Positions 18,181-60,020 of a stretch of 60,337 bases of DNA are shown here, one piece after another. The stretch is from positions 1 to 60,337 of the forward strand of contig CADCVF010000077.1 in NCBI GenBank assembly GCA_902806095.1. The letters run 5' to 3'. Within the stretch, counting starts at the first letter, position 1, and each line of letters starts with the position of its first letter. This DNA comes from an uncultured Rubrobacteraceae bacterium (GTDB lineage Bacteria > Actinomycetota > Rubrobacteria > Rubrobacterales > Rubrobacteraceae). A program made the translations under genes and the position numbers. The notes under the pieces are model-generated. The model saw nothing but the letters and a program-made list of their open reading frames with translations. It was not told where the DNA came from and did no database searches.

Positions 18181-18352
18181 GAGCCGACGAGCGGACTCGA
18201 ACCGCTGACCTGCTCCAGCTACGAGAAGGATTCGGCGGGTTTCGGGGAATTGGCGGTTGTTTCAGAACCCTTTAGGTAAGCCGAATACGCGCACCAGTAA
18301 CATCCTGGAACAACCGGAAATTGGGCCGGGTTGGTGTACGGTTGGTGTACAG
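18181..18352 (-). repeat. tRNA-Thr 3'-half attachment-site copy 1 with class A arm repeats
   Basis: 18181-18225 is, on the minus strand, the T-arm and 3' acceptor side of a tRNA-Thr (loop TTCGAGT, stem AGCGG/CCGCT, acceptor CGTCGGC, anticodon-loop end CTCGTA). No 5' half is present. About 105 bp further right lies a perfect 11-bp direct repeat (TTGGTGTACGG then TTGGTGTACAG, 18331-18352). The whole 170 bp is about 95% like copy 2 at 31 kb. I read this as an att site with integrase arm sites. Confidence 0.7.
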
Positions 18353-18373
18353 AGTTCGGGTTTGCCTTGAGCG

Positions 18374-18921
18374 TCAGGACCAGGTGCGCCAGCTCTGGTG
18401 GGCGGCCTGGGGGTCAGAGAGGACGTTCTCCCAGTCGCTGCGCAGCGGCTCTACCCCGAGTTCGGTGATTACGAACCGGATGATGTCCACGAGGGTGATA
18501 CGGCCGGTGGGGATGTGCGTCCGGTGTAGATCTTCGCGTCCGAGGCGGGCGCCTTGATCGAGGTTCAGGTGAGGGTGGCGTACTTTGAATATCTCGGCGG
18601 GATGCCAGTGGAAGGCTAGGACTACCCGATTGTCGGTATCGCGCAGGTTGTAGTTATATTCGGCGGTGCTGACCTTCCAGGGGTCCTGTCGGGATCCTCT
18701 ACCCGGATCACGTAGTAGAACTGCTTGAGGACCAGGGAGAGGTCTGTTTCGCCGGGTAGCTTCTGCGGTAGTCCGTCTCCGAGTACCAATGCGTGCGGCT
18801 CGTCGGTGGTGGGATAGTAGCCACCTTTGACGTTGAGCTGCGCCCTGGTAACGCAAGAGATGACTCGTTGTAGTGGACCGAGGAAATTGTTTACGGCTTC
18901 GGCTGGGGTTCTGCCCGGCAC
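18374..18921 (-). pseudogene. Hypothetical protein, possible toxin partner, one frameshift
   Basis: The first frame (from GTG 18921) reads MPGRTPAEAVNNFLGPLQRV, up to FYYVIRVEDP. The second continues DPWKVSTAEYNYNLRD, AFHWHPAE and DLHRTHIPTGRITLVDIIRFVI. They join with a single-base shift near 18690, giving about 180 residues. I do not recognise the family with certainty. It follows the small gene at 18941-19144 by 20 bases on the same strand, a toxin/antitoxin-like layout. Frameshift or sequencing error are both possible. Confidence 0.5.
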
Positions 18922-18940
18922 CTAGGAGAAAGAGATCTCG

Positions 18941-19144
18941 CTAGCGCGCGAACGGCAGGAGCATCGCCACGTCCACGACATCGGGGTGGTCAGGATCCTC
19001 ATCGTAATGGCCGCTGTCCCATCGTTCGACGAATTCTTCGCCGCTAATGCCGAGGTAGAAGCGAGCGGCGTTATCGAAGAGCGCGCGTCCCTCCTCGTCG
19101 GTGAGATCCCGTACGATTCGGTTTTTCCCGACCGCTTTCTCCAT
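18941..19144 (-). CDS. Small conserved protein, antitoxin-like
   Basis: The 67-residue product has the pattern FYLGISGEEFVERWDSGHYDED. This recurs in small proteins of unknown function encoded in front of toxin-like genes in actinobacteria. The ATG has AGGAG seven bases upstream. Pairing with the frameshifted gene downstream is inferred from distance only. Confidence 0.55.
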   Translation of the reverse strand: MEKAVGKNRIVRDLTDEEGRALFDNAARFYLGISGEEFVERWDSGHYDEDPDHPDVVDVAMLLPFAR

Positions 19145-19287
19145 GACAACTCCTGTTTCGCCGGTCTCGAGAATTATACCTCGTTCCCCGGCACCGGGCT
19201 CTCGCCCAAAGAATATGCTCTACCCGGAGGCGGGAGTGGTCGAGGGCGAAGCGGGTCTTGGAGGACCCGTGCGCCGTCTGGGAAGTT

Positions 19288-19533
19288 CTACGCTTCGGGG
19301 CCCTCGTCGTGGCGCCACCGGCGCAGCGTGGCGACGAACTCGTCTATGTCCTCGTCCTCGGGTCAGAAGTCGCCGAGCAGGGCATCGAAGTCGTCGGCTG
19401 GTTCGACCCCTTGCTCGTTCGCGAGGGCTGCAAGGTCTGGGTGAGCATCGAAGGGACGTGGCGTGCGCTCTGGATCTTCGGCGCCGTTTGCGGCTTCAGC
19501 GTCTCCGGATTCGGATGTTGACTCGAGGGTCAT
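19288..19533 (-). pseudogene. Small acidic antitoxin-like protein with an internal stop
   Basis: From ATG 19531-19533 the frame reads MTLESTSESGD and later EPADDFDALLGDF. A TGA at 19363-19365 interrupts it, then PEDEDIDEFVATLRRWRHDEG follows to a TAG. The motif F(W)PEDExxDEFxxxxRxWR is typical of small antitoxin-like proteins, and the TGA falls exactly where Trp (TGG) is expected. A single G-to-A change would explain it. Its start overlaps the stop of the DUF924 fragment. Confidence 0.55.
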
Positions 19534-19850
19534 CTTCGCATCCTCTTCTCATCCTGTGAGTAGGAGAGAGGTGAGTCCCGGTAGATATTGCGGGAGAACT
19601 GGTCCAAGACGATGATCAGCGCCAAGCGCCCTCGCGGCCTCTCTGCCCAATGGTCTAGCTCTCCCCGCCGGGCTTGCTCCAGCACCTCTCCGAAGCGCTC
19701 GGTAATCTCCCTGTCCACCTCGGGGCCGCCTTGCATCCATCGCTTCCCTTCGCGACGGAGAATCTCCAGATCGGCATCGTTTATGCCTTTGGGGAACCAA
19801 TACGAGAGGACCCCCTCAGGATCGCTGCTGACTCTGTTCTCTTCAGACAT
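19530..19850 (-). pseudogene. DUF924-family protein, 3'-truncated
   Basis: The frame from the ATG at 19850 encodes 106 residues with the DUF924 pattern: VLSYWFP, DREITERFGEVLEQARRGELDHW and LALIIVLDQFSRNIYR. The family normally has about 180-200 residues, so nearly half is missing. The break comes just after the conserved DQFxRNxYR segment, where the antitoxin-like gene begins. Function of the family is unknown. Confidence 0.7.
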
Positions 19851-19981
19851 GCTTGCTCTCCCTTCGACCTGTGAGCGACGCTCCCGTCCGTTATGATGCC
19901 ACCCGTGGAGCTGGAGCGAGGGCCTACCAAGAGAATCGCTCCAGCTGTAGTCTACTCTCATACGTCAGTTTGTTTGCGAAA

Positions 19982-20687
19982 TCATTCTCGAAATCGAAGA
20001 AACTCTCGTGTTGCCGGCGGAAGGGACTTCACGAACGCCTCTTCTTGCTTCAGAACCTCCTCAAAAGTACCGCGGACGAGCAGCATCTTCTCGCAGTCAT
20101 TTGCGACCACATCTTTGCTGTCGATCACAGCTCGGTCGAAACCACCACCGCACGACACTTTGTCCTTTACCGCGGGCACGTGGTCGCCGAAGAGGATGTC
20201 GTCGCCGTCTCCGCCCGAGAGGATATCGTTTTTCGAAGCCTCATCTAAGTGACCGTCGGTGAGCCAGTCGCCGCCTTCTCCGCCCAGCATGCGGTCGGAG
20301 CCAGTCCAACCGTCGATGAGGTCCCTGCCTTCCTCGCCCACCACCGCGCTGTCTGAGCCATCATCACCGAAGACGAAGTCGTTGCTCCTTGCCGCCCAGA
20401 ATCCCGTCGTTGCCAGGACCTCTTGCCAGGTTCTTGTGGCCTCCTTGGGTGCGCCGTTCGTTGCCGCCGAGGACCCAATCCTTGCCCTCCCTGCCTAGCA
20501 AGTTGTCGCGGCCAGGCAACCCCAAGATGTCGTCTTGGCCACCCTTGCCTAAGAGGTTGTCGGCATTATTGGTTCCCCTCAAAGTATTGGGTCCATCGGT
20601 GCCTATCTTGGTTACAGCCCAAGCTAGCCCACTTGCGAGCAGCAGGGTTAAGGCCATAGCCGTCAACAGAAGGATAAGTCGTCGCAT
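19982..20687 (-). pseudogene. Secreted calcium-binding repeat (RTX-like) protein, frameshifted
   Basis: The N terminus is a signal peptide (MRRLILLLTAMALTLLLASGLAWA). RTX-like nonapeptide repeats follow (GGxGxDxLxG types: NLLGKGGQDDILGLPGRDNLLG, and in the other frame GGDGDDILFGD and RMLGGEGGDWL). The two parts are in different frames and join near 20390 with a one-base shift. The end has a Cys pair (CGGGFDRAV ... NDCEKM). The reconstructed protein is about 230 residues. ATG at 20687 has AGGGAAGGGG upstream. Confidence 0.75.
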
Positions 20688-20766
20688 CCTGTGCCCCTTC
20701 CCTAGAGGTACTCTTCTCTGCCCATGTTTACGACGAAGATTGTGCCTTTGCCGTCGCCGCGAGTGA

Positions 20767-21165
20767 TCACTTCCTTCTCACCTGCACCCGCCATCTGCGC
20801 CGCGCCAATCCCACCAAGAGAGCCCGAGACTCTTCAGAGAGCCAGAGCAGGCGATCCAGGTGTCCGCACTCGGGGCATCGGAGCACCCACTCTCCGTCGT
20901 CGCGTATGGCCTCCTGGTACTGTAAATCCTCACCACCACAGTCACAGCTCTCCCGTAGCGAGGTCTCCTCCCGCTCGACCGGTCTCGCTTCGACCGGCTG
21001 CTCCACCAGTCCTGTTATGCGTAGCATGGAAAGTAAGGCCGCACGGACGAGACCCCGCTGCGGCGTGCTCAGCGCACCGGATGGTCGGTCCCGATCCGTA
21101 AGATGTCGCGCCACTGCTTCCTGATCCGAGGCCCTCCAGAACCAGATGTCACAGTAATAGTTCAT
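20767..21165 (-). CDS. Zinc-ribbon protein of unknown function
   Basis: The 132-residue product contains a Cys4 zinc-ribbon arrangement (CDCGGEDLQYQ ... WVLRCPECGHLDRLLWL) between residues 74 and 107. An Arg-rich C terminus follows. I recognise no further domain. It is divergent from the STAND regulator at 21338, with 172 bp between the starts. Confidence 0.6.
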   Translation of the reverse strand: MNYYCDIWFWRASDQEAVARHLTDRDRPSGALSTPQRGLVRAALLSMLRITGLVEQPVEARPVEREETSLRESCDCGGEDLQYQEAIRDDGEWVLRCPECGHLDRLLWLSEESRALLVGLARRRWRVQVRRK

Positions 21166-21337
21166 GCTCTTTCCTTCCCTGCGCTACTTCGGGTGTTCCG
21201 TGCTATCTGGATCATGTCCCCAGCGCTTCGCCGCTCCCAGCGACAATCCAAACAACCCCACAAACAATTTTCCGAACAAGGGCGTGTTACGATGTCGTGA
21301 GGCAGTACGAACGGTCCAGGATCGGGAAGCAACGAGG

Positions 21338-23737
21338 GTGAACGCCAGTAAGGGAAGCAGGTTCGGGGAGCTACTCCGAAGCTACCGCGACTCGGCCAAC
21401 CTTACCCAGGAGGAGCTGGCAGGAAGGACGGGGCTCACACCCCAGGCCATCGGCCTGCTCGAACGCGGGGAGCGGCGCCGGCCCCACAGGTACACCGTGC
21501 AGAAGCTGGCGGAAGCCTTGGAACTGAGAGGAGAGGATCATGCCGATTTTGAAGCGGCGGCACGTCGCTCCTCCGCCTACCGCGCGGCGGTGGAGCCCCA
21601 CCGCAACCTCTCGGCACCGCTTACGTCGCTAATCGGACGCGAACGCGAGGTGGCGACCGTCGCCTCTCTTCTGCGTCTCGAGAACACGCGCCTGTTGACC
21701 CTGACCGGCCCTGGCGGCGTCGGCAAGACTCGCTTGGCCCTTGAAGTGGCTGAGTGCTCGCATGAGGCATTCGCAGGCGGGATCGTCTTCGTGCCCCTGG
21801 CTCCACTACGAGATGCCGCCCTGCTTCCGTCGGTTCTCGCCGAGACGCTCGGGATCAAGGAGGTGTCGGGGGAGCCGCTGCAGGAAACCGTTGAGAAGCA
21901 TTTGCAAGATAAGCAGGTGCTCCTGGTACTCGACAACTTCGAGCATCTCCTAACAGCTGCCCCCGTGCTCAGCGAACTCGTTGGGAGGTGCCGGCAGCTG
22001 ACGGTGCTGGCTACGAGCCGGGCGCCGCTGCGCCTCGGCGGTGAGCATCAGTTCCCTGTGCCTCCATTACCCCTTCCCGAGGCGGATATCCTGGCATCGG
22101 GAAACATCCCGGAGCACCCCCCTGCGGCTGTGGAGCTCTTTTTGCAGCGCGCTCAGGCCGTCATGCCCACCTTCGAGCTTACCGCCACGAACTCGGCCGC
22201 CGTGGCACAAATCTGTCGGAGGTTGGACGGGCTTCCGCTGGCGATCGAGTTGGCGGCGGCAAGGGTCAAGCTGTTTCCCCCGCAGGCGCTCCTCAACCGG
22301 CTGGATCACAGGTTGCAGTTACTTACGGGAGGAGCCCGCGACCTGCCGGAGCGACAGCACACACTGCGCGACACGGTAGCTTGGAGCTACGATCTCCTCG
22401 ATCCAGCAGAACAGGTCCTGTTCAGACGATTCGCGATCTTCGCGGGCGGCTGCACCCTGGAAGCCGTTGAGACCGTCTGCGGTTCGGAGGAAGACGAGCA
22501 GGCGGTGAGCAGCGTTCTGGAGACACTAGCATCGCTGGTAGACAACAGTTTGCTGGTGGCGCAATCCGAATCCTTTGGGTACCAACAACACGAAGAACTA
22601 CGCTTCACGATACTCGAAACGATCCGGGAGTACGCCCTGGAACGCCTCACATCGAGTGGCGAGCTGGAGGAGGTGCAACGGAAGCACGCACGATACTACG
22701 TAGAACTGGGGGAGGTCGCGCAGCCCGTAGCCTCTAAGCGGTGGGAGGAGGCAGAGTGGTGGTCGAAGTTCACCCGGATAGAGAGAGAGCACGACAACCT
22801 GCGAGCAGCGCTAGGCTGGGCCGTACAGAATCGGGAGGTGGAGACGGGGGCGCGGTTGGCGCTGGCGCTGTGGTGGTTCTGGATCGAGCGCGGCTACCTG
22901 AGCGATGGACGCCGGTGGACGGAGACGCTCCTAGCTCTGGACGAGGCGGGAGACCCAACCGGGGAAACTCAGCTCAAATTGCCCGCTCGTACGAAGGCAC
23001 GCCTGATACACGTAAGTGGCATCCTGTCCATGGTGCAAGGGGACTACGATCGCGCGGTGGAGTTGCACGAAGTAGCCCTGGCCATGTATCGGGAGATGGG
23101 CCACAAGAAAGGAGAGAGTGCCTCGCTCCGCGAGCTCGGGTTCGTATCTTACGAGCGGGGAGACTACGAACGTGCGGCACGCCTGCACAAGCGGTCCCTC
23201 GACCTGGCCCGCGAGTTTGCTACGACTTTCAGCATCGCCTGGAGCCTTCGCGCCTTGGGGGACGCGGTGCGCGAGCAGGGAGATCTCAGACGCGCGAGAA
23301 CTCTGCTGGAAGAGAGCCTGGCATTGTCTCGCGGCGAGGAGCACGCCTGGGGCGTCGTGCGCACGCTCGCCAGTCTCGGAAGCGTTGAGTGCGAAGCAGG
23401 TGAATACTCACGGGCGTCGGGGTTGTACGAAGAGAGCCTGAACCTGGGACGGCGATTGGGGATGAACCTTACCATCCTGCGCTGCCTGGAGGGGCTGGCT
23501 CGAGTGGCGGTCGCGCGAGGGAGGATGGAACGGGCAGCGTGGCTCTGTGGGGCCGTCGCTGCGCTGCGCGAGGATAAGGGCTGGCAGCTCCCACCGGGCA
23601 AGCGCGCCGAGCGCGAGCGTACAGTGGCCGCGGCCCGCGGGGCGCTCGGGGAAGGAGCGTTCGAGGCGGCTTGGGCAAAGGGCCACGCGATGCCGCTGGA
23701 GGAGGCCATCACGAATACCCTAAAAAAGGTCGAGTAA
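21338..23737 (+). CDS. XRE-STAND-TPR transcriptional regulator
   Basis: About 799 residues: XRE helix-turn-helix (residues 8-55), then a STAND ATPase with Walker A GPGGVGKT (124-131), Walker [20 protein letters not shown] and GLPLAIEL. A winged-helix-like segment and TPR units follow (GDYDRAVELHE, GDYERAARLHK, GEYSRASGLYE). The C terminus has the family motif in the form AKGHAMPLEEAI. The GTG at 21338 is chosen because it places the HTH as in the paralogues; an upstream ATG at 21164 would add 58 unrelated residues overlapping the divergent gene. Likely a ligand- and ATP-controlled activator or repressor. Confidence 0.9.
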   Translation: MNASKGSRFGELLRSYRDSANLTQEELAGRTGLTPQAIGLLERGERRRPHRYTVQKLAEALELRGEDHADFEAAARRSSAYRAAVEPHRNLSAPLTSLIGREREVATVASLLRLENTRLLTLTGPGGVGKTRLALEVAECSHEAFAGGIVFVPLAPLRDAALLPSVLAETLGIKEVSGEPLQETVEKHLQDKQVLLVLDNFEHLLTAAPVLSELVGRCRQLTVLATSRAPLRLGGEHQFPVPPLPLPEADILASGNIPEHPPAAVELFLQRAQAVMPTFELTATNSAAVAQICRRLDGLPLAIELAAARVKLFPPQALLNRLDHRLQLLTGGARDLPERQHTLRDTVAWSYDLLDPAEQVLFRRFAIFAGGCTLEAVETVCGSEEDEQAVSSVLETLASLVDNSLLVAQSESFGYQQHEELRFTILETIREYALERLTSSGELEEVQRKHARYYVELGEVAQPVASKRWEEAEWWSKFTRIEREHDNLRAALGWAVQNREVETGARLALALWWFWIERGYLSDGRRWTETLLALDEAGDPTGETQLKLPARTKARLIHVSGILSMVQGDYDRAVELHEVALAMYREMGHKKGESASLRELGFVSYERGDYERAARLHKRSLDLAREFATTFSIAWSLRALGDAVREQGDLRRARTLLEESLALSRGEEHAWGVVRTLASLGSVECEAGEYSRASGLYEESLNLGRRLGMNLTILRCLEGLARVAVARGRMERAAWLCGAVAALREDKGWQLPPGKRAERERTVAAARGALGEGAFEAAWAKGHAMPLEEAITNTLKKVE

Positions 23738-24498
23738 CGAGCAGTGCGCACCGGTGTTATAGCTGTCGCTGCGAGGACGGCTACAAACCTCTCCCGCGCG
23801 ATCTCCAACCCGCCGGTCGAGGCCAGCCCGGGAGACTCCCCTACCATCTGTACAGTTCCACAGAGGAGCAGGGATTTCGAGATCCGGCATCCGCCTACTG
23901 ACTTACTTTGGCCCATGCTCGAACTCTCGAGGGTGACCGCGGGTAACTTCGTGGTGCGGGCCAAGCATTCGTTGAAGAGATACCCGTGATCTCCGTTGCT
24001 CTCGGCGTCCGGATAGACGTAGGCACAGAGCCTGACAGGGCATTCGTCCATCGTTCATTCTATGGACACCTGCTCTCATCTCCTCGACGGAGTCGGAGGG
24101 AAGGACGTGGACGGGCTCGATGAGACCCTTGGCTACCGGGTTGCGGTACGGTTGCAGTACATTCGTAAGCCTTGTTACCGCGGGAGGCAGGATGGTCTCG
24201 AGGAGCAGGTCGTGATCGAGGACCTCTAAGATATTGTCAGCGACAAGATAGTCGGGGTGAACCTGCTCATGGCCCAGGAGGTTGTAATCTCCCCGGTGGT
24301 CAGCCACTTCACACAGCCTCTGCACCTTTGCTTGGCCGGATTACGCCCTCGGCCAGCAGGACGCGGAAGCGTAGCGTCCAAGTCTGCGTGCTTCTGAACT
24401 CACGCGTCCCTTGGAGCACCGCCGGCCACGGCTGTGCCAAAGAACTGCGGCATCGCTGCGGTGTAGCCGAAGAATGACGCGGGAATAGATGAGAGTCC
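23738..24498. other. Gene-poor stretch with one paired arm repeat
   Basis: I see no supported gene. A minus-strand open frame (23903-24325) has no recognisable domain. The class C paired repeat at 24141-24160 is the only clear signal. Confidence 0.4.
24141..24160. repeat. Paired 11-bp arm-type repeat (class C) without a tRNA core
   Basis: TTGCGGTACGG followed by TTGCAGTAC matches the arm repeats beside the attachment sites at 31.0, 48.5 and 52.3 kb. No tRNA 3' half is found nearby. It may be an orphan left by a deletion. Confidence 0.45.
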
Positions 24499-24832
24499 AT
24501 GTCGAGTAAGGAAACGCAGATGGAGGCACGTCTGCAGGCGCGTCCACTGCTTGAAACCGTGTTCGTGCCGGTAGGCCTGCAACCGCTGATGTTCGGCACC
24601 GCGCGCGACAGCTACCTGTACGTGCCGACGACCTACCGTGCGGATCGCCCCGCCCCGTTGGTGCTCTTGCTGCACGACGCGGGAGGGCACGCGCGACGGG
24701 GTGCTGTCGATAGACCGCTTCAGCCGCAGGATCGTTCCCGAGCTGGAGCGGGGCGGCTACGACGTGTACTACAGGGAATTCGACGGTGGGCACACGATCT
24801 TGCCAGAGATCGCCTCGGAGGCAGTTGGCTAG
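24499..24832 (+). pseudogene. Alpha/beta-hydrolase esterase (PHB depolymerase-like), middle deleted
   Basis: The first part (GLQPLMFGTARDSYLYVP and RPAPLVLLLHDAGGHAR) is the N terminus of a PHB-depolymerase/phospholipase-like esterase. In another frame, RDGVLSIDRFSRRIVPELERGGYDV and EFDGGHTILPEIA are its C-terminal part, including the active-site His region. The join lies near 24690. The central part with the nucleophile serine (GxSxG) is missing, so the gene cannot make an active enzyme. Confidence 0.7.
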
Positions 24833-24928
24833 TTTACGCAAGATAAGTTCCCCTAAAGGACCGGTCAGCGCCCTTCCGGAGCCGGACCTCCTCGCGCTCC
24901 GCCCGCAGCACCGGGTAGCATTGATGAA

Positions 24929-26062
24929 ATGATCTCGATCTTCTTCGAACAAGGCCGCTTCGCACTAGTGCTGCGGGTCGCGCGGTCTCTGCTCGGTGGT
25001 GCCACAGGGTTAGAACAGCCGCGAGAGCCTTACGTGCAGGGCGTCACGGCGTCCTCGGCAGTCATCTGCTGGGTGAGCCAGCACCCGGGATCAGGCGTGG
25101 TCGAGTACGGCAAGACTCCCGAACTGGGACGCAACGAAGCCGAGGCCCGGATCGGCAGGCGCCACGCGGTCGCGCTCACGGGTCTCGACCCCGGCTCGAC
25201 GTACCATTACCGCGTGGAAGGCGTTGGCGGGTCATCGGCGACGGGGTGCTTCCGCACCGCTCCCGCGGGCGACAACTCACGCTTCAGCTTCGCGGTGGTC
25301 GGCGACAGCGGCAGCGGGGGGAAGGGACAGCTGGCAGTAGCTGCGCTGCTGGAACGCTTGAGGCCGGACCTAGTCCTGCACACAGGTGACGTGGTCTACC
25401 CGGCAGGCCAGGAACGCCACTACGACCGCCGCTTCTTCGCTCCGTACCGAAACCTCATCAAGACTGTGCCCCTATTCCCTGTCCTCGGCAACCACGACGT
25501 GAGGAAGGGGAACGGCGCAGCCTTCCTCGAAAACTTCCATCCACCCCTCGGCAGTCCGGGTAGCACCAAGCGCTACTACTCCTTCGATTGGGGCAACACG
25601 CACTTCGTCGCGCTCGACAGCGAACTGTATCACGGTGATAGGGGTCCTAACCTGGAGGAGCAGAGGGACTTCCTGAAGCGAGACCTGGCTACCACGCGCA
25701 AGCGCTGGAGGATCGTGTTCTTGCACAGGTCTCCCTATGGCTCCTCGAGGCACGGCGGTGATGAGAAAGCGAGGGAAAACCTGGAGCCGCTCTTCGTGAA
25801 GCATGGGGTGGACCTTGTCTTCTCTGGCCACGACCACGTCTACGAGCGCACCGTGCCCATAAGGGGCGTGACTTACGTGGTGAGCGGGGGAGGCGGCAGG
25901 AGGCTGTATCCAGCGGGTAATGGAGAGTTGACAGCCTCCTCCGTGTCAGCCCACCACGCGGTGCTCGTGCGCGTCAGCGGCAGACGCCTGTCGCTGGAGG
26001 CAGTAGAAGTGGGCGGCAAGGTTGTTGACCGCTTGGAACTCTACCAGCCCCACGCGAAGTGA
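24929..26062 (+). CDS. Purple-acid-phosphatase-like metallophosphoesterase
   Basis: The 377-residue protein has an N-terminal fibronectin-III-like domain (about 33-112; EPYVQGVTASSAVICWV ... YHYRVEG). A calcineurin-like phosphoesterase domain follows with all five metal motifs: GDSG (125-128), GD in HTGDVVYP, GNHD (187-190), the His in VFLHRSPYGSS, and GHDHVYER. This is the layout of purple acid phosphatases and related extracellular phosphodiesterases. The N terminus (FALVLRVARSLLGGA) could act as a weak signal or anchor. It stands alone, with degraded genes on both sides. Confidence 0.88.
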   Translation: MISIFFEQGRFALVLRVARSLLGGATGLEQPREPYVQGVTASSAVICWVSQHPGSGVVEYGKTPELGRNEAEARIGRRHAVALTGLDPGSTYHYRVEGVGGSSATGCFRTAPAGDNSRFSFAVVGDSGSGGKGQLAVAALLERLRPDLVLHTGDVVYPAGQERHYDRRFFAPYRNLIKTVPLFPVLGNHDVRKGNGAAFLENFHPPLGSPGSTKRYYSFDWGNTHFVALDSELYHGDRGPNLEEQRDFLKRDLATTRKRWRIVFLHRSPYGSSRHGGDEKARENLEPLFVKHGVDLVFSGHDHVYERTVPIRGVTYVVSGGGGRRLYPAGNGELTASSVSAHHAVLVRVSGRRLSLEAVEVGGKVVDRLELYQPHAK

Positions 26063-27215: not shown

Positions 27216-27219
27216 TATC

Positions 27220-27655: not shown

Positions 27656-27693
27656 AGGGACCGGACCTGCAGCACGTCGGACCTTCGTTGACC

Positions 27694-27852
27694 CTAGTCC
27701 TCCTCTAGAAGGCTCTGGCCCAGGTTGAGGATGGTCGGTGCCCATAGTCCAACAAAGATCGCCGACTCGCGCCTGCCCGTAGCATATAGCGCAAGCGAGA
27801 TCAGTATAGAGACGAGCGTCCCTCCAACGTAGATTCCCTTGCCACCGTTCAC
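27694..27852 (-). CDS. 52-residue small membrane protein
   Basis: From the GTG at 27852 the product reads MNGGKGIYVGGTLVSILISL, with a second hydrophobic stretch (IFVGLWAPTILNLGQSLL) and an acidic end. AGGAGG lies six bases before the GTG. Two short membrane helices are likely. The strong ribosome site, intact frame and hydrophobic pattern support a real gene; function unknown. Confidence 0.55.
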   Translation of the reverse strand: MNGGKGIYVGGTLVSILISLALYATGRRESAIFVGLWAPTILNLGQSLLEED

Positions 27853-29297: not shown

Positions 29298-29306
29298 AAT
29301 GTACCC

Positions 29307-44675: not shown

Positions 44676-44685
44676 GGCAGCCCCC

Positions 44686-52269: not shown

Positions 52270-52394
52270 TTGCAGTACGGTTGCGGTATAGCGAGGCTCG
52301 GCTGCTCCGATGTGCCTCATGTTTTGCCTGCAAATCGCGATAAAATAGAAAGCCGGCGAGCGGACTCGAACCGCTGACCTAGTCTCTTTACGAG
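52270..52394 (-). repeat. tRNA-Thr 3'-half attachment-site copy 8 with class C arms on its left
   Basis: Paired repeat TTGCAGTACGG/TTGCGGTATA (52270-52289), left spacer GCCTGCAAATCGCGA, then core 52350-52394. The stem region differs (CTAGTCTCTTTACGAG), but the T-arm and CTCGTA end are conserved. An IS256 fragment begins about 20 bp to the right. Confidence 0.62.
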
Positions 52395-52416
52395 TCGGCC
52401 GCGGCGGTTTCCGCCC

Positions 52417-52940
52417 CATGTCGCCGGGTGCATTTCATGAGAAACGCCCTTTCCCTGGTGCCCAAGGCGGCCCAGGAGATAGTCGGCGCAACCATTCGCA
52501 CCGTCTTCGCCCAGCCCGATGCCCAGAGCGCCCGCGAGCAGTGGCGCAGGGTCTCAGAGGGTTTCCGACATCGGTTTGGGAGGCTCTCGGAGTTGATGGA
52601 GGAGGCCGAGGAAGACGTCTTGGCCTATGCCACCTTCCCTCAAGAGCATTGGCAGAAGATATGGTCAAACAACCCGCTTGAGCGGCTAAACAAGGAGGTC
52701 AAGAGGAGTACCAACGTGGTGGGGATCTTCCCGAATGAGGCGGCGGTGATAAGGCTCGTAGGCTCTGTGCTCTCGGAGCAACACGACGAGTGGCAGGTCT
52801 GCAAACGTTACTTCAGCGCCGGGTCCTTGGCGAAGCTGGATCGAAGGGAGGAACAGATGGCGGAACAGCCGCAACTGGTGGCGAGCTGAGGAGCGGTGAG
52901 GAGTGGAGCTGCACGAGGCTTTTACACACTTGACAGGACG
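52417..52940 (+). pseudogene. IS256-family transposase, C-terminal relic with right IS end
   Basis: The frame CRRVHFMRN leads to ALSLVPKAAQEIVGATIRTV, TFPQEHWQKIWSNNPLERLN and KEVKRSTNVVGIFPNEAAVI. This is the C-terminal ~150 residues of IS256 transposases, with the WSNNPLERLNKEVKRR signature. It is intact to the stop at 52889. The right IS end (CTTTTACACACTTGACAGGACG) follows. The left two thirds are lost at the attachment site, so the breakpoint coincides with it. Confidence 0.8.
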
Positions 52941-53367
52941 CATACCATTGAGATGGGGTACAGAAGCCTCGTGCCGCAGGCGCCCGCATCCCGACCTTCG
53001 GAGCACCCTAACAGGCGAATTTCGATAGAGCTACCTACCTTTATGTGAGTCGTTGAGGTACATATCCTGGATGGCTCCCATCAGGGCTGAGGATGAGTTT
53101 CTAAGTTGAACCTTTCTTTGCATACTTGAACCCTTCTTTGCATACAGTGCAGCAGATTCAGATATCCGAGGTCACGGCACGGGCTTCATGGTCCCTGCAG
53201 CGGGGCCTAGTGTGCACTAACCATGAGCGACTCCTTTACATGACCGTTACAAATCTTGTCAGAATTACATCAAAGTGGGGACAGCCTTGCAAATGCGATT
53301 ATCCCGGAGTCCAGGTCACCTTATACTAGCTAGATCGACTCATAGATGACGCTGTAAGGAGAACCCG
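52941..53367. other. Intergenic region before the F420-type oxidoreductase
   Basis: No gene is supported. A 20-bp tandem repeat (listed separately) and the leader of the oxidoreductase gene lie here. The base composition is less GC-rich than the surroundings. Confidence 0.45.
53106..53145. repeat. 20-bp tandem direct repeat
   Basis: TTGAACCTTTCTTTGCATAC is followed at once by a copy with one T-to-C change. It lies 220 bp before the oxidoreductase start. It could be a pair of regulator binding sites or simple slippage. Confidence 0.5.
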
Positions 53368-54267
53368 ATGGTTGAGAAGCCATACCTCTTTGCCAACGAC
53401 CATCCAAGACGGAGAGCGGACGTAATTGCGCTGGCCCAAGAGGCAGAGGCCCGAGATTTTCCGGGTCTCTTCTCGGAGAGCCCCGGTGACAACCTGGCGC
53501 TCTCGCTCGCCCTGCTGGATCGTACCAAGCGAATCGCCGTCGGCACCGGTATCGCAGGCATCTACCTGCGCCATCCCCACACCATGGCGACTGGGGCCTC
53601 CTTGATCGAGGAGCTGCACCCGAAACGTTTCCTGCTGGGCCTGGGCACTTCACACGTGCCGTTTCACGAGGAGATGGAAGTCCGCTACGGTAAGCCTCTG
53701 GACGACATGCGGCGCTACGTGCAGAATATACGCTCTGTAACCGAAGGAGCGCCGTGTCCTCCCATTATTGTGGCGGCTTTGCGCAAGCGGATGAGCACTC
53801 TGGCCGGGGAGATTGGGGACGGGGTGATGTGGGCGAATGCTGCGCTTTCACACCTGCCGTTTTCGCTCGCCCAGATTCCGCCTGAACGACGATCTACTAT
53901 GATCTTGAGCAACTCGGCCCCGGCGTGCGTTTCGGAAGACCGTGGGGCTGCGCTCATGGCGATCCGGCGCTACTTGCTGTTCTACCTGAAACTCCCAAAC
54001 TACCAGAACTACTTTGTCGAGGCCGGCTACGAAGAGGAGGTGATGGCCGCCCGATCCGCGATAGGCGACGGTGACGACGAAAGCCTGATGGCCAAGATCC
54101 CAGAGAGGATGGCTTCCGATGTCGCAATCTTCGGCACGAAGTCTGAAGTACTCGAGAAAGCTGAAGCCTGGGCTGCGGCAGGCATCACCCACCTCGTGCT
54201 CGACTGCACCTCCACGACCGGCGATAATCTCAAAGCCGCCTACGAGGTTATCGACGCCTTCGCATAG
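53368..54267 (+). CDS. LLM-class (luciferase-like) F420-dependent oxidoreductase
   Basis: The 299-residue protein has the TIM-barrel pattern of the family: AVGTGIAGIYLRHPHTMATG, then ELHPKRFLLGLGTSH, PPIIVAAL and AGEIGDGVMWANA. Near the end comes GTKSEVLEKAEAWAAAGITHLVL. These enzymes use reduced F420 or FMN to reduce or oxidise varied substrates. The ATG has AAGGAG upstream. It is complete, in contrast to the degraded relative at 26.6 kb, from which it differs in sequence. Confidence 0.87.
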   Translation: MVEKPYLFANDHPRRRADVIALAQEAEARDFPGLFSESPGDNLALSLALLDRTKRIAVGTGIAGIYLRHPHTMATGASLIEELHPKRFLLGLGTSHVPFHEEMEVRYGKPLDDMRRYVQNIRSVTEGAPCPPIIVAALRKRMSTLAGEIGDGVMWANAALSHLPFSLAQIPPERRSTMILSNSAPACVSEDRGAALMAIRRYLLFYLKLPNYQNYFVEAGYEEEVMAARSAIGDGDDESLMAKIPERMASDVAIFGTKSEVLEKAEAWAAAGITHLVLDCTSTTGDNLKAAYEVIDAFA

Positions 54268-54482
54268 AGGAGTTTGCAGAATAATTGCAAGCTTGCGAGG
54301 CCGTGGATAATGAGCGCCTGCTTAAGGTAATTCAGGCTGAGGGTGCTCGGCGCCTTAGACTTTCCGCCATGGGCGACTTCTCACGGTCTACGGTGAGGCT
54401 ACACTCCCAACGGTAGCGAGTCCATCCTTCTCGGATGAGCCGCCCCACGACGATGACCACCTCGGAGAAAGCGTACTCAAGA

Positions 54483-54655
54483 GAGCCGACGAGCGGACTC
54501 GAACCGCTGACCTGCTCATTGCGAGTGATCACTCAGGCGTTGCAGGGGGTTGCACAGGATTGCAAACACCGCACATCTGAGCCTTGTTCCTTGCTGTGCT
54601 TTGCCCCGTGTGGCATCGCATTGCGCTCCCGGTGGTGTCAGAGTGGTGTCAACCA
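54483..54655 (-). repeat. tRNA-Thr 3'-half attachment-site copy 9 with class B arms
   Basis: Core 54483-54525 reads, on the minus strand, CTCGCAATGAGCAGGTCAGC and on to the acceptor end. The right flank is class B (GCGTTGCAGGGGGTTGCACAGG) with the paired repeat TGGTGTCAGAG/TGGTGTCAACC at about 54633-54654. Confidence 0.65.
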
Positions 54656-54978
54656 TGTCACGGATTCGATCGCTGACGCTGCCACGCTCAGGCGTGTGAA
54701 TCTCATCACCACCATCCTAAGCAGGTGACCCTCAAGCTGGCGAACATGCTCACGACGGACTCCTTGGGCCGGAACATAGATATGTGCCCTGACGGCAATG
54801 CATCTCGCTCGGACCCTTCTACGCGAGACGCCGGGCGGCCTCCTTCTCGGAGAGCCCCGCTCGGCAGGCCCCGAGGTGCCCGAGAAGGAGACCCGGCCTC
54901 TCTCCGGGGTCAAGGACCGCATCCTTAGGGGTTTTGGGACCTCCGTCCAAACTCCTGTGCTCTTCGGAGGTGAGGACC
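54656..54978. other. Gene-poor stretch
   Basis: Nothing recognisable was found between attachment-site copy 9 and the acetyltransferase gene. Confidence 0.4.
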
Positions 54979-55602
54979 TCAGTCCGTATGACAGCTGTCA
55001 GCGGCCCCCAGATCAGACGTGTCTTGCGGGGGTGAGAGGTCAATCTCGATGTAGTCGGTGCCATCCTCGTAGCGCGACCTCTCAGGCAGTCCGAGGTCCC
55101 TGAGCAAGTGAAGCATCCCGCGGTTCTGGGGGAGGACGAACGCCGTGAAGGTTCTGACGTCTCTCTTCAGGGCAGCCTCTACCAGGCGCCGGGTCAGAGC
55201 CAGCCCGAGCCCCCTCCCCTGCCACCTGTCCTCCACCTCCGCCGCGTATTCTGCCCGCTCGGTCGTCCCCTCGCGGTCGAAGCTCCCCACACCGATGATC
55301 TCTTCGGGGCGCTCAGGATCGACAGCGACCAGAGCAAAGCGGTTTATCTTATCGAGATTCGTGAAGTAACCTGCTTCCCTGTCGCTTAGCTCCGGCTTGG
55401 CGGCGAAGAAGCGCAGGTAGATCGAACGCTCGCTCAGGCGGTGGTGGAAGCGCTGGAGGGCCGAGGCGTTGTCTGGCGCTATGGCATGGTACGCGACGCT
55501 CGTACCATCGAGCAGCTCGACGCTATCCGAGGCCTCCTCAGCGGTCGGAGCGCTAGTCCCATCGACCATGAGCCCTTCTGTGGCCGGCTGCTTCATTCCC
55601 AA
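54979..55602 (-). CDS. GNAT-family N-acetyltransferase
   Basis: The 207-residue protein has the acetyl-CoA pyrophosphate loop VEDRWQGRGLGLALTRRLVEAA (RxxGxG/A type), preceded by the central strand EIIGVGSFDREG. The N-terminal segment HHRLSERSIYLRFFAAKPELSDREA is typical of the GNAT domain found at the end of acyl-CoA synthetase-like protein acetyltransferases. It probably acetylates a protein or small amine; the substrate is unknown. It ends in a stop at 54979, and no partner gene is adjacent. Confidence 0.85.
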   Translation of the reverse strand: MGMKQPATEGLMVDGTSAPTAEEASDSVELLDGTSVAYHAIAPDNASALQRFHHRLSERSIYLRFFAAKPELSDREAGYFTNLDKINRFALVAVDPERPEEIIGVGSFDREGTTERAEYAAEVEDRWQGRGLGLALTRRLVEAALKRDVRTFTAFVLPQNRGMLHLLRDLGLPERSRYEDGTDYIEIDLSPPQDTSDLGAADSCHTD

Positions 55603-55712
55603 ACCCCCAAACTCGCGAAGTCCTCTGCAATACAGAATTTGCCACCCTTTACCCTGAATCAGCGAATTGTCTCATAATTCTGTTGCGCCTGGAACAATAG
55701 TAGTTCCGCGCC

Positions 55713-56034
55713 TCAGCGGCGCGAGTTGGCACCCTGGGCGTGATGCAGTTGATGGCCTGCAATCAGGGCGAGCATCTTGATGAGGCCCGCCTTCCTCAGG
55801 CTCCAAGTGTCCTCTTCTATCACGCGCGAACCCACCGCAACCCTGAAGCCACCGAGCAGCCAGCCGGTCAGCACCTCCTGCGGCAGAAAGGTCGCCGCAA
55901 GAAACGCGAAGGGGGAAACAGCCGGATTGGATGCCGGTCACCGCGAAGACGACCGCAATGTTACCCTCGAACCTGCGCACAAGTCCCTCGGTCCGGACGG
56001 CGGATCCGTCCGCTTTACTGCGCAGGGCGCTCAT
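55713..56034 (-). pseudogene. Small membrane-associated protein, frameshifted in a C5 run
   Basis: The N-terminal frame (MSALRSKADGSAVRTEGLVRR ... AVVFAVTGIQSG) joins FAFLAATFLPQEVLTGWLLGG and GSRVIEEDTWSLRKAGLIKM in another frame if one base is removed from a run of five near 55909-55914. The reconstructed ~106-residue protein has at least one hydrophobic segment and no known family. The frameshift may be an error. Confidence 0.5.
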
Positions 56035-56142
56035 AGCTCTGCCACCTCTCTCCGCACCTCTATGGCTGAGATCCCGCCGCGACGAGACCGACCCCCTTTC
56101 TTCGCTTCGGGTCCCTGCCGCATTGGTGTAACTGGACTTTCC

Positions 56143-57155
56143 TTATGCCGCCGTTCCACCCGGCAGTTCCCCGGACGAGATGGACTCGGCACTCGCCTCG
56201 GCGAGCCGCTCATCGACGATGAGGACGAGCTTGCCGCGCACGCGACGGCTCTCGCTGTAGCGGTGCGCCGCAGCAGCGTCGGAGAGCGGGTAGCTCCAGT
56301 CGATAACTGGCCTCACCTTTCCAGCGGAGATCCATGACCCTACGGCCTCGAGGTCGGCGCCGCTCGGCTGCACGAGAACTCCTTCCAGACTTATGCGACC
56401 GATGGCGCGTGCCAGCCGTGTGACCACGGCGTTTTCGAACAGGGGGTTGACCGTGACGATCTTGCCCCCGGACGCAAGGCTCGACGCCAGCGCAACAACG
56501 GAAGGGTGTTGAGCGCGCTGATCACGACGTCGTAGCATGACCCTTCCGCGGTTATGTCGCCGCGGGTGCAGTCGATGACCTCGTCGGCCCCGAGGCCGCG
56601 CACAAGTTCGACGTTGCGCCCGCTGCACGTCGCAGTGACCCGCGCTCCCATGGCCTTGAAGATCTGGACCGCGAATGATCCCACGCCGCCCGAGGCGCCG
56701 TTGATCAGCACGTGATCTCCCGCCATAAGCTCCGCCTTGTCCCGCAGCGCCTGCAAGGCTGTCAGCGCAGCTAAGCGCACGGCCGCGACCTTCCCGAGCG
56801 AGAGCCCCGACGGCACCCTGGCGGCACTGTCTGCGGCCACAGTGATGTACTCGGCGTATGCGCCGCCGGTGGTGGTGGGCGTCATCACGTAGACCGCCTC
56901 CCCGGACACGAAATTCGTCACCCCCTCACCAGTCTCCTCCACGACGCCGGCCACGTCGGAGCCGGACACGAAAGGCAGCTCGAGCCGCACGAAGGGGCGC
57001 AACCTGCCGCCTCGCAAAGCAGCCCAGTCGGCCGGGTTCACCCCGGCGGCGGAGACCCTTATGAGGAGTTCCCCCGGCCCGGCTCGGGCAGAGGGACCTC
57101 GAGTGCCTCGAGCACCTCCGGTGGCCCGTAGCGGCGAAAGCCAAATGCCCGCATG
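56143..57155 (-). pseudogene. Quinone oxidoreductase/zinc-independent MDR protein, two frameshifts
   Basis: The N-terminal MRAFGFRRYGPPEVLEALEV is in one frame, and GELLIRVSAAGVNPADW up to HVLINGASGGVGSFAVQIFK (the NADPH-binding GxxGxxG) is in a second. VVALASSLASGGKIVTVNPL to the end is in a third. This is a full-length MDR/quinone oxidoreductase of about 335 residues with shifts near 57078 (G run) and 56500. Two simple indels are enough to restore it, so sequencing error is possible; if real, the gene is dead. Confidence 0.75.
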
Positions 57156-57256
57156 GTCTGCCTCTCGTGTTGCTCCTGGCACATCTATCGTCATGGATCA
57201 AACCTCCTCTTTCGGGTGGACACGTTGGGGTTCGTCACTACACATGCCGCACGCCT

Positions 57257-58075
57257 TCAGGCCGTCCCGGGTCGCGCAGATCGGCGCGCGTCTCCACCTG
57301 CGCGTCCGCCACGCAGCGCGCCGAACAAGACAATCGCTACCAAGGCGGCAGCGAGCAGCGCCGCGCCGGTCGTAACGAGCGAGTAGGCGTACTGGTTGAC
57401 GAGGATCCCTGTGAGCGCCCACAGCACGGTAGCACCGTAGGTCAGGTAACCTTGCACGGGTCCCGTCCTGCCAAGCAGGATCACGGCGCAGGTCAAGAGC
57501 GCCCCGACGAGCAGAAGAACGGTGCCAAGAGCCGCCTCGCCGACGCCTCCGGGTGCCACCAGTTCCCGACGTACGGCCTCGGCGGTGAGGCTTACGGCGT
57601 TGGCCGCCGTTATCCACCCGAGGAACGGCCCGATCGGCAGCGCGACCAGCCAACGCTCGCCTATGCCAAGGTCATGCTCGCGCGCGTACCAGGAGAGGCG
57701 GAGGTAGGCGAGTAAGAGGAAGATGAAGATGGAGATGAGCATCAGCTGAGCGAGGCCGAACTGCCTCAAGGGAACGAAGACCGACCACAGGCCCGTGCAG
57801 AAGAACGCTGCCGCGGTGAAGGGCCCTACGCGCCTCAGAAGCGGATTGTCGCGGTTGGAGGGTAGGGCCTGGTAGACGGCGTAGGCCAGCGACAAAGTGA
57901 AGATAAGAACCCAGATCGTGAACGCGTATAGCGCAGGTTCGACCAGCGAACGCGGCCCTTCATCGACTACGCCCTGGATCGTGGCGCTCGCGGCCGCCGT
58001 CATCCCAAACTGGAACAGCGCCCCTACGAGGTTCGCCGCCTGTCGCGCCACGTCCCACCTGAATTCGCTACCCAT
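57257..58075 (-). CDS. TspO/MBR-like membrane protein, paralogue 2
   Basis: The 272-residue protein has about nine hydrophobic segments and shares FTIWVLIFTLSLAYAVYQAL and PSNRDNPLLRRVGPFTAAAF with its neighbour. The GPVQGYLTYGATVLWALTGIL segment is near the end. I place it with the tryptophan-rich sensory protein-like (TspO/MBR) group, although it is longer than the ~160-residue TspO proteins. It lies 86 bp after the paralogue on the same strand and probably in one transcript. Function unknown: TspO proteins bind porphyrins or other lipophilic ligands. Confidence 0.6.
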   Translation of the reverse strand: MGSEFRWDVARQAANLVGALFQFGMTAAASATIQGVVDEGPRSLVEPALYAFTIWVLIFTLSLAYAVYQALPSNRDNPLLRRVGPFTAAAFFCTGLWSVFVPLRQFGLAQLMLISIFIFLLLAYLRLSWYAREHDLGIGERWLVALPIGPFLGWITAANAVSLTAEAVRRELVAPGGVGEAALGTVLLLVGALLTCAVILLGRTGPVQGYLTYGATVLWALTGILVNQYAYSLVTTGAALLAAALVAIVLFGALRGGRAGGDARRSARPGTA

Positions 58076-58161
58076 GATCTACCTCCTCGATATTCTCGCT
58101 CTTACCACACGCTCGCCATTCCACCCGGAAGGGGTTTTCGTGCACGGATGCGTCGAACACC

Positions 58162-58968
58162 TCAGGCCACCCTCGGGCTCGAGGGCTGACCGGCACCCCC
58201 GCGCACGCCCGACCGGCGCAGCGCGATGAAGAGGATAGCCACGACCAGCAGAGCACAGACGATGGAGGTGAAGGAGGGGATCAAGGAGTTCTGGTACTGA
58301 TTGGCGACCACCCCGCCGAGCGCCCACAGCACCGCACCCCCGTACGCCAGGTAGCCCTGCACGGGGCCGTTCCTCCCAGCCAGTATCACGGCGCAGGCGA
58401 CCGCGCCGCCGACGATCAGCATGAGCGCCCCGAAGATGGCCTCCCCGATGCCGCCGCTCAACACACCCGTGGCCACGAGGACCGTGACCAAGCCGATGAA
58501 GAACGCGGCCGTGACCCAGCCGGCTAGTAGCCCGAAGGCCGGCGCGACGAGCCACCGGTCGAAGCGGCTGCCCGAGCCGGCCCCACGCTGTAGCAGGACG
58601 AAAGCGACGACGGCGCCAGTAGAGATCCCCACGAATACTATCTGGGAGAGCACGAACTCACGCGCGGGGAACACTATCTCCCAGATCCCGTTCGAGAAGT
58701 AAGCCAGAGCGGAGAACCACCCGATTTTCCGCAGGAGCTGGCTCTCCCGGTTGGACGGTAACGCTTGATACACCGCGTAGATCAGGGCCAAAAGGAAGAT
58801 GGGGGTCCAGATGACGAACGCGTAGTCAGTCGGTACGACGAGTGTCGGGTTCTCCCCGGACACCCGTCCCACCGCCGGCCCCGTGAAGATCGGGACCGCG
58901 ATCTGGAAGATTGCCCCTAATATGACAGCGACCTGCCTTGCAATGTCTACCCGCGCACCCTTGTTCAT
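58162..58968 (-). CDS. TspO/MBR-like membrane protein, paralogue 1
   Basis: The 268-residue protein resembles the next gene throughout (FVIWTPIFLLALIYAVYQAL, PSNRESQLLRKIGWFSALAY, GPVQGYLAYGGAVLWALGGV), so the two arose by tandem duplication. It has about nine membrane segments and is Trp-containing at helix ends. The start at 58968 has GAGGAGG-like sequence upstream. A near-perfect copy of the TetR operator lies 89 bp before the start, making control by the neighbouring TetR likely. Confidence 0.62.
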   Translation of the reverse strand: MNKGARVDIARQVAVILGAIFQIAVPIFTGPAVGRVSGENPTLVVPTDYAFVIWTPIFLLALIYAVYQALPSNRESQLLRKIGWFSALAYFSNGIWEIVFPAREFVLSQIVFVGISTGAVVAFVLLQRGAGSGSRFDRWLVAPAFGLLAGWVTAAFFIGLVTVLVATGVLSGGIGEAIFGALMLIVGGAVACAVILAGRNGPVQGYLAYGGAVLWALGGVVANQYQNSLIPSFTSIVCALLVVAILFIALRRSGVRGGAGQPSSPRVA

Positions 58969-59056
58969 GCTCGACCTCCTCCTAACTCCTTCGTTGTCTT
59001 CGCAGCATCTCAGCCTAGCTCACCAAACTTCACTATACCCTTCAGTTATTTGACAT

Positions 59057-59074
59057 ACCTACCGATAAGTAAGT
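59057..59074. promoter_or_regulatory. TetR operator copy upstream of the TspO-like genes
   Basis: ACCTACCGATAAGTAAGT matches the 18-bp site at 59761 in 16 of 18 bases. Its position about 90 bp before the first TspO-like gene fits promoter overlap. Confidence 0.7.
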
Positions 59075-59101
59075 AGCAGCCTAAAAAAAGAGAACCTCTT
59101 C

Positions 59102-59743
59102 TCACGGCAGCACTCCGTTGAGGAACAGGTCTACGGTACGGTCCGCCATTCCCTCGGCTGTTCTGGTGGCCTCCGGTAGGCTTGGTCCGGCTGGTATGTT
59201 GTTGACTTGGAGCATACCGGAGAGGAGGCTAAGGAAGGCCCAGGTCAAGAGCTCGGGGCTGTTCTCGGAGAACTCGCCTGACTCGACCGCCGACGAGATG
59301 GCTCGGTGTATCGGCCCGTAGAGCGAACCGAAGAACCCTTCCGCGAGCTTGACCTGGTGCTGCTCGCTGACGAACCTGGTGAGATCGCGAAGCTCATCCA
59401 TGGGGTGATCGTGGTTGCTCTCGCTCATAAGCCAGCGAGCTACCGCACGCAGCTTGGCCGCCCCAGAGTCGTGGTCGGCGATTGCACGCTCGAGGCCCTC
59501 GCGGTGGTGCTCAAGTGCGCGGTGGGCAATCGCGAGGAAAAGCTGCTCTTTGCCCTGAGGGAAGTGATAATACAGAGCGGGCTTGCTGACGCCGACCTCC
59601 TTGGCGACTTCCTCCAGCGAAACTCCCAGGTACCCGCCTCCACCCAGGTGCGTCTCAGCTACGTCCATGATCCGCTCCCGAGTCTCAAAGCCCGCTGATC
59701 GCTTGCGTCCATTCGAAGCTGCGCTCTTGCGTTTACTACTCAC
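59102..59743 (-). CDS. TetR-family transcriptional regulator
   Basis: The 213-residue protein has the TetR HTH at residues 20-70 (TRERIMDVAETHLG ... SLEEVAKEVGVSKPALYYHFPQGKEQLFL) and a ligand-binding C-terminal domain. The start at 59743 is favoured because the operator lies just upstream (59761-59778). Matching palindromes in front of it and of the divergently placed TspO-like operon show it most likely represses both. The ligand is unknown; a lipophilic compound is plausible from the neighbouring membrane proteins. Confidence 0.88.
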   Translation of the reverse strand: MSSKRKSAASNGRKRSAGFETRERIMDVAETHLGGGGYLGVSLEEVAKEVGVSKPALYYHFPQGKEQLFLAIAHRALEHHREGLERAIADHDSGAAKLRAVARWLMSESNHDHPMDELRDLTRFVSEQHQVKLAEGFFGSLYGPIHRAISSAVESGEFSENSPELLTWAFLSLLSGMLQVNNIPAGPSLPEATRTAEGMADRTVDLFLNGVLP

Positions 59744-59760
59744 GACCGCTATATCATATT

Positions 59761-59778
59761 ACTTACCGATAGGTAAGT
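59761..59778. promoter_or_regulatory. TetR operator in front of the tetR-like gene
   Basis: The palindrome ACTTACC-GATA-GGTAAGT has perfect 7-bp arms and lies 17 bp upstream of the regulator start. This is the classical autorepression layout. Confidence 0.75.
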
Positions 59779-59857
59779 CAAATTCCAGTGGGTGCTGCCC
59801 TTCCTTTCGGCTCATCGGGCATCGTGGAAATGATGAGCGGAAGGCTACGAAAACAAA

Positions 59858-60020
59858 GAACCGACGAGCGGACTAGAATCGCTTACCCCTGCTCATTACG
59901 AGTGATCGGTCGGGCGTTGCAGCGGTGTGCAGGGGGTTGCAGAATCCGCATATCTAGGCGGGTTTCTGTGCTCCGTATTGCACCATATTGCATTCTCGGT
60001 GGTATCAGATTGGTATCAGG
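59858..60020 (-). repeat. tRNA-Thr 3'-half attachment-site copy 10 with class B arms
   Basis: Core 59858-59902 has point changes (ACTAGAATC for ACTCGAACC) but keeps the CTCGTAATGAGCAG end, which folds as a tRNA anticodon loop and stem. The class B flank ends with TGGTATCAGAT/TGGTATCAGG at 60000-60020. Confidence 0.62.

Follow-up and report, generated by a model that had tools for sequence, protein, structure and literature searches.

A probable decayed accretion array of tRNA-targeted islands at the tRNA-Thr(CGU) gene of Rubrobacteraceae

Co-oriented tRNA-Thr 3' halves along the window

The stretch analysed here (the window) covers positions 1 to 60,337 of contig CADCVF010000077.1 of an uncultured Rubrobacteraceae bacterium, referred to below as C77, and carries a row of short copies of the 3' half of a tRNA-Thr(CGU) gene separated by segments of 2.1-12.9 kb with varied cargo. 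We refer to each copy as a core, made up of a CTCGTA box from the anticodon loop, a spacer and the T-arm. It is very probable that the row represents a decayed accretion array of tRNA-targeted islands at the tRNA-Thr(CGU) gene of this family.

A search with the 17-nt T-arm allowing up to three mismatches returned eight matches in the window compared with a mean of 0.33 in 100 shuffles. The matches start at 18190, 31086, 37848, 41149, 48373, 52359, 54492 and 59867 and all copies in the window lie on the minus strand. The core at 18180..18225 forms the low end of the window array and has a T-arm matching at 27/27 positions and the spacer GCTGGAGCAGGTC, which recurs in the cores at 31076..31121 (there followed by a TTTGCAGG motif), 37838..37883 and 48363..48408. 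The right arm of the core at 37838..37883 contains GTACACCAACC twice and matches the left arm at 31076. Other spacers are found at 41139..41182 (ATGACCAGGAA, with two mismatches in the T-arm), 52349..52394 (AAGAGACTAGGTC) and 59857..59902 (ATGAGCAGGGGTA), and the core nearest in sequence to the tRNA is that at 54482..54525 (CTCGCAATGAGCAGGTC). Sequence comparison added a truncated ninth core near 48571 (48571..48704, minus strand) in which a complete left arm and CTCGTGATGAGCAGGTCAGCG are retained and the T-arm is lost. A tenth, degenerate core on the minus strand at 36945..36985 is probably an old unit boundary, because homology to contig C389 of the related genome G008 begins just below 36945.

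The original prediction of at least nine 3'-half copies stands in so far as eight are clear, one is truncated and one is degenerate, but a single window copy (54485-54525) matches the 41-nt 3' half with no more than three mismatches and the others deviate by substitutions or by two or four extra nucleotides between CTCGTA and the T-arm. Even this best copy has the anticodon CGC and not CGT, which does not bear out the perfect tRNA-Thr(CGU) 3' halves claimed for one class of copies (class B). ARAGORN found no tRNAs in the window and a 5'-half pattern allowing up to three mismatches occurs at four places, none adjoining a core, in agreement with the earlier statement that the copies lack a 5' half.

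The source gene and the distribution of the cores

In Rubrobacteraceae relatives (genomes and contigs are labelled G and C throughout) the intact tRNA-Thr(CGU) gene reads gccgacgtagctcagctggtagagcagctcactcgtaatgagcaggtcagcggttcgagtccgctcgtcggctc with small differences in the 5' half, and ARAGORN called it in nine of 21 loci with a 3' half identical to the consensus. Matched against this gene, the window copies are derived from its 3' half. Of 91 cores seven were dropped, having more than four mismatches in the T-arm or no CTCGTA-like box, which left a table of 84 sites; since the box criterion tolerates one mismatch, conservation of the CTCGTA box partly reflects how sites were selected. The 5' half adjoins 14 of the 84 and these are the tRNA loci. 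Spacer comparisons used a set of 66, from which the 14 tRNA loci, three sites with short flanks and a single site whose spacer measures 17 nt had been removed.

The genome to which the window belongs holds 14 copies confined to the contigs C77, C19 and C21, with co-orientation of 8/8 on C77 and 5/5 on C19, and the even chromosomal spread expected of an ordinary interspersed repeat is not seen. Under the alternative that the copies have nothing to do with integration and represent an ordinary dispersed repeat, a terminator element or an RNA derived from a tRNA, one can point to the T-arm being an inverted repeat and to T-rich DNA after some copies. However, the copies are co-oriented and restricted to three contigs, the corresponding boundaries in relatives bear integrases and arm sites and homology of units is found beside the copies (see below), which makes this explanation extremely improbable.

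At least three matches (up to three mismatches) were found in 9 of the 39 family genomes searched, namely our own genome with 14, G002 with 20, G008 with 9, G014 with 8, G005 with 6, G034 with 5, G003 and G026 with 4 each and G033 with 3; these counts omit hits identical to tRNA-Thr(GGT) and include the intact gene where it was assembled, some matches with two or three mismatches may be due to chance and G033 drops to two without its intact gene. Neither an exact match to the 27-nt core nor one to an arm motif was found in viral contigs, and plasmids and phages had no match to the arm-plus-core stretch 41139-41310.

A copy of a left-arm motif lies on C63, 58 bases from the contig end, and this contig may be a further piece of the array. 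Two genes were considered as chromosomal flanks. YjeF, encoded close to the low end of C19, is 88% and 62% identical to copies in G008 and 39-43% to those of others among 11 relatives, and a glutaminase below 18 kb of the window is present in four of 11 relatives; with close copies in G008 only and presence in four of 11 relatives respectively, neither fixes the end of the array.

One other tRNA of our genome, tRNA-Gln(CTG), was tested and has one extra partial copy and no array. This copy (C33 2954-2977, L184) adjoins an integrase that groups with the integrase beside the tRNA-Gln gene and is probably the end of another island. Separately, two nearly identical tRNA-Glu(CTC) genes are present (C31 10867-10938 and C35 30-102), one of them beside an integrase fragment.

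Integrases and arm sites at the tRNA in relatives

A tyrosine integrase is found near the intact tRNA-Thr in seven of 14 tRNA loci of relatives. Integrase frames end approximately 85-115 bp from the tRNA in G002 C149, G004, G027 and G030; in G013 C120 the distance to the core is approximately 400 bp, and in G009 and G016 the frames lie 2.1 kb away. Six of these tRNA-Thr integrases fall on one branch of the tree (95/96), with that of G009 omitted from the count as a near-copy of the one in G016, and the branch is separate from the integrases near tRNA-Gln and tRNA-Leu in our own genome. The tree took in 10 of the 15 integrase hits of that genome; the five unplaced hits are mostly fragments.

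In G009, G016, G027 and G030, where only the element ends were examined, a second core in the same orientation lies 44-233 kb downstream of the tRNA, such that the intact tRNA stands at one end and a 3' fragment at the other. Tandem 11-bp repeats (e.g. CTTACCGCAACCGTACCGCAAC) at fixed distances from the cores are common to both ends of these four elements, and such tandem pairs have the appearance of arm-type integrase sites in lambda-like systems. The arms of the two ends agree at 12/12 nt in each of G016, G009, G027 and G030 in a 12-nt comparison and at 22, 22, 21 and 16 of 22 nt respectively in a 22-nt comparison. Matched arms are thereby present in four of the five tRNA-adjacent integrase-bearing elements for which both ends are available, G009 and G016 being near-copies. 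At the tRNA-side end the elements of G016 (L093/L094) and G009 (L097/L098) have 98% identity over the 6.2 kb aligned between these genomes of two genera, which suggests recent transfer.

More generally 52 of 68 left arms and 22 of 66 right arms contain a tandem repeat pair, compared with 295 of 2000 random 175-mers, and left arm (approximately 130-150 bp) and core together constitute an att module. Two left arms from G002 (C98 and C205) are identical over 80 bp and similar to approximately 130 bp, and they adjoin unrelated cargo. A dyad like TCGGCTTAGATAAGCCGAA is found 3' of many cores (e.g. C19 12532) and a similar dyad occurs within left arms.

Units, cargo and their recurrence

The lowest core is followed by a left arm on the minus strand (18226..18360) with a tandem pair of GTACACCAACC, belonging to a 12.9-kb unit (18226..31075) that encodes an HTH-AAA-TPR regulator, a metallophosphoesterase, an MFS transporter and an ABATE/CGNR regulator and contains a weak integrase C-terminal scrap (24026-24133). 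The 6.8-kb segment that follows (31122..37837) encodes DUF6883, RibD_C, PIN-like (below cut-off) and CcbP proteins together with an integrase N-terminal scrap (33941-34149), and a 3.3-kb unit (37884..41138) encodes a carboxyl methyltransferase and an acetyl-CoA hydrolase. A conserved left arm on the minus strand (41183..41310) with a tandem pair of the TGATACCAC type opens the 7.2-kb unit at 41183..48362, whose cargo comprises a beta-lactamase-family protein, NmrA-like and anthrone oxygenase-like proteins and an AfsR-like regulator. An NB-ARC/TPR regulator with a weak cyclase domain (49001..51685, minus strand) is the cargo of a 3.99-kb unit. A Mutator-family transposase fragment and a luciferase-like monooxygenase are carried by the 2.1-kb unit at 52395..54481, and the 5.4-kb unit at 54526..59856 carries GNAT, alcohol dehydrogenase-like and TetR proteins and two proteins without a Pfam match. 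Beyond the highest core a left arm on the minus strand with a tandem TGATACCA pair (59903..60021) belongs to a next unit that continues past the contig end. On C19 the cargo includes molybdenum hydroxylase subunits, an erythromycin esterase-family protein and a sulfatase.

Related AfsR-like or NB-ARC/TPR regulators recur in the window at 1-1824, 8353-10710, 21338-23737, 45690-48086 and 49001-51685, and within these genes positions 1-131 and 8461-8591 are 96% identical; the genes at 1-1824 and 8353-10710 were left out of the Pfam scan.

A search with PF00589 gave no matches on C77, C19 or C21 and 15 elsewhere in the genome. In addition to the two scraps within the window units (33941-34149 and 24026-24133) an integrase scrap lies on C21 at 3070-3204.

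Three window units recur beside cores in relatives. The 41-48 kb unit (41183..48362) has homologous stretches of 82% and 74% identity between two cores in G034 C168, window positions 53219-54652 are 89% identical to G026 C203 in a stretch spanning the core of that contig and three stretches of the 31-37 kb segment have 86-89% identity to sequence on the downstream side of the core on G008 C389. Weaker homologues of the genes at 49-52 kb and 25-26 kb are also on core-bearing contigs. On G005 C38 the left neighbour of the core is common to G005 C279 and the right neighbour to G003 C42, the switch occurring within the core, and over the junctions the identities of left and right flanks are uncorrelated (r 0.05).

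The occurrence of the same unit beside different neighbours in relatives and this want of correlation would also suit an integron-like working cassette platform, in which units without an integrase are mobilised in trans and actively shuffled and which overlaps with a decayed array in all except present activity. The enrichment of tandem pairs in left arms and the perfect T-arm of 43 of the 66 sites likewise favour it, but 0 of the 10 integrases of our genome placed in the tree (five of the 15 hits being unplaced) fall on the tRNA-Thr branch, the right-arm pairs are confined to a third of the sites (the 22 of 66 above) and the arms of the units are mostly mismatched. We therefore consider a working platform rather unlikely.

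Spacer variation and the position of strand exchange

The distance between CTCGTA and the T-arm in the 66 sites is 11 nt in 34, 13 nt in 26 and 15 nt in six, with no other lengths. All 14 full tRNAs have the normal tRNA spacer, which is retained in 21 of the 66 other sites and replaced by a variant in 45, and among these 45 the T-arm is perfect in 26. The spacers are composed of recurring pieces (ATGAGC, GCTGGAGC, ATGAGATG and AAGAGACT with AGGTC, AGGGGTA or AGGAA) in length steps of two. Neither on the left nor on the right is flank similarity a guide to the spacer, with permutations giving values at least as high in proportions of 0.34 (left) and 0.19 (right). Among non-tRNA pairs in register (offset <100) the spacer is kept to one base in seven of seven that are homologous on the left and in four of 13 that are homologous on the right; the seven left pairs are not independent, three being of one family and all tRNA-like, and two out-of-register left-homologous pairs differ in spacer.

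The original prediction placed integration in the anticodon loop. The block shared among sites does begin exactly there, as exchange at that position would give, but the behaviour of the spacer in left- and right-homologous pairs speaks for a variant in which strands are exchanged within the T-arm (AGCGG-TTCGAGT-CCGCT), with CTCGTA and the spacer belonging to the left end of the element and the sequence from the T-arm onward to the tRNA. The normal spacer of every full tRNA and its frequent replacement elsewhere also fit this variant. Against it stand the start of the shared block, the differing spacers of two sites whose left arms are identical for 80 bp, the failure of flank similarity on either side to predict the spacer and the composition of the seven left pairs together with the two discordant out-of-register pairs, and on balance we find the case for exchange in the T-arm evenly poised.

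We also considered a bolder combination of these ideas, a live gene-shuffling platform on a tRNA remnant in which the central stretch of 11, 13 or 15 nt is swapped independently of the sequence on either side, as though one strand exchange fell at CTCGTA and the other in the T-arm and mismatches in the intervening DNA were tolerated, and in which integrases of many arm specificities share one core. We regard this as improbable.

Discussion

In the proposed history of the decayed array tyrosine-integrase elements would insert at tRNA-Thr(CGU), each insertion rebuilding the tRNA gene and leaving a copy of its 3' portion at the far end of the element, and successive insertions would build up a series of units with a co-oriented 3' half between each and the next. 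In our own genome the units would since have been stripped of their integrases and of most arm sites on the right, with cargo genes and left arm sites surviving, and the att modules would now be dispersed repeats through which units can be reshuffled. The order of the insertions, the loss of mobility and the reshuffling through att modules are steps that we infer. Repeated integration followed by decay, close to the repeated integration or decayed tandem island first proposed for this stretch, is the best account because relatives have integrases near the intact tRNA together with a 3' half downstream. It also draws support from the co-orientation of the copies, the matched arms of four relatives' elements, the integrase scraps, the recurrence of units next to cores and the similarity of the high end of C19 to DNA beyond the intact tRNA in G008.

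A number of results weigh against this account. The intact tRNA-Thr(CGU) gene, whose presence in the genome would have supported the original prediction, was not found in our own draft assembly by an Rfam tRNA search, by ARAGORN on the loci or with the 5'-half pattern, and the threonine tRNAs recovered there are Thr(GGT) and Thr(UGU) only. As the high end of C19 is 95% identical to DNA on G008 C591 whose start lies 195 bp beyond the core of the intact gene, the assembly probably breaks at the tRNA because the core is a repeat; G006 DNA used as a query for the region upstream of the tRNA gave nothing clear. The remaining seven of the 14 tRNA loci are without an integrase in the DNA examined, some stretches of which are short. 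The two integrases found at inner array sites (G005 C279 and G002 C205) lie outside the tRNA-Thr branch and form another, shuffled labels were equally clustered in 65 of 500 trials and ten tree rows belong to no group. The integrase scraps at C77 24026-24133 and C21 3070-3204 rest mainly on a remnant query (G008 C538) and are weak against intact integrases.

The arms and spacers belong on the same side of the balance. The fifth element with both ends available, the tRNA unit of G002 C149, has mismatched arms (7/12 nt), and matching arms are found in five of 24 array units (G002 C149 included) compared with 665 of 5563 other pairs (Mann-Whitney p 0.22), with array units matched no better than random (p 0.11) in 22-nt windows as well, the 12-nt version being that mainly used. 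The spacer moreover varies otherwise than simple anticodon-loop integration predicts, and the unrelated cargo beside the shared left arms of G002 C98 and C205 does not fit simple integration either. Since matching arms are limited to those five of 24 units and 11-15 nt in the core change without regard to the unit on the right, it is doubtful that exchange takes place in the anticodon loop alone. We read this as exchange within the T-arm, on the far side of the spacer, or as later reshuffling via the repeated att modules. With numerous junctions (66 analysed here) the site is well suited to testing the position of strand exchange and the movement of integrase-less units.

In outline the array resembles an integron in having repeated sites of the same orientation that separate cargo (integrons are described in passing in PMC4119200), but the array sites are tRNA-derived and have arm repeats and there is no integrase match beside the array, where PF00589 matches are lacking on C77, C19 and C21 and where the assembly breaks such that a gap is possible. 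Tycheposons, as summarised in PMC10872708, are likewise tRNA-linked islands with a tyrosine recombinase and cargo; here, by contrast, there are many short units in a row and none in our own genome has an integrase match.

Parallels also come from additive flexible islands at tRNAs, described with tRNA-Lys repeats in Methylophilaceae (PMC10872708) and also in Ca. Actinomarinales (PMC7771536) and Alteromonas (PMC4119200), where as here cassettes are added at a tRNA and marked by repeats of part of it. These islands are from other taxa and the accounts of them in these papers, as far as they concern such repeats, do not describe att arms or variable spacers, both of which can be resolved here. 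In Dehalococcoides, as presented in PMC3146451, numerous islands follow one another in tandem within the 100 kb downstream of a single RNA gene, ssrA, and are bounded by direct repeats of the ssrA 3' end; 16 of them have an integration module and 15 lack one, and these 15 have been proposed to be cis-mobilizable elements. The likeness lies in the succession of several units, some of them lacking an integrase, with repeats of a single RNA gene at their borders. In that account the Dehalococcoides islands have a CcrB-like serine recombinase and a 20-bp ssrA repeat, whereas tyrosine integrases, a core of approximately 44 nt from tRNA-Thr(CGU) and arm-type repeats are found here and no unit in our own genome has an integrase match. 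The present array does not qualify as an ssrA island, its repeats matching tRNA-Thr and the integrases near the tRNA being of the tyrosine type; serine recombinases were not searched for.

Among titles in the Rubrobacter literature on genomic islands and tRNA, or on integrases and attachment sites, none concerned such arrays. The kind of process is already known from other bacteria and what we describe is a new case in Rubrobacteraceae, in which the array is long and the junctions look reshuffled. It reveals where genes are preferentially gained in a little-studied bacterial family and links this hot spot to one tRNA, one integrase branch and a readable att anatomy.

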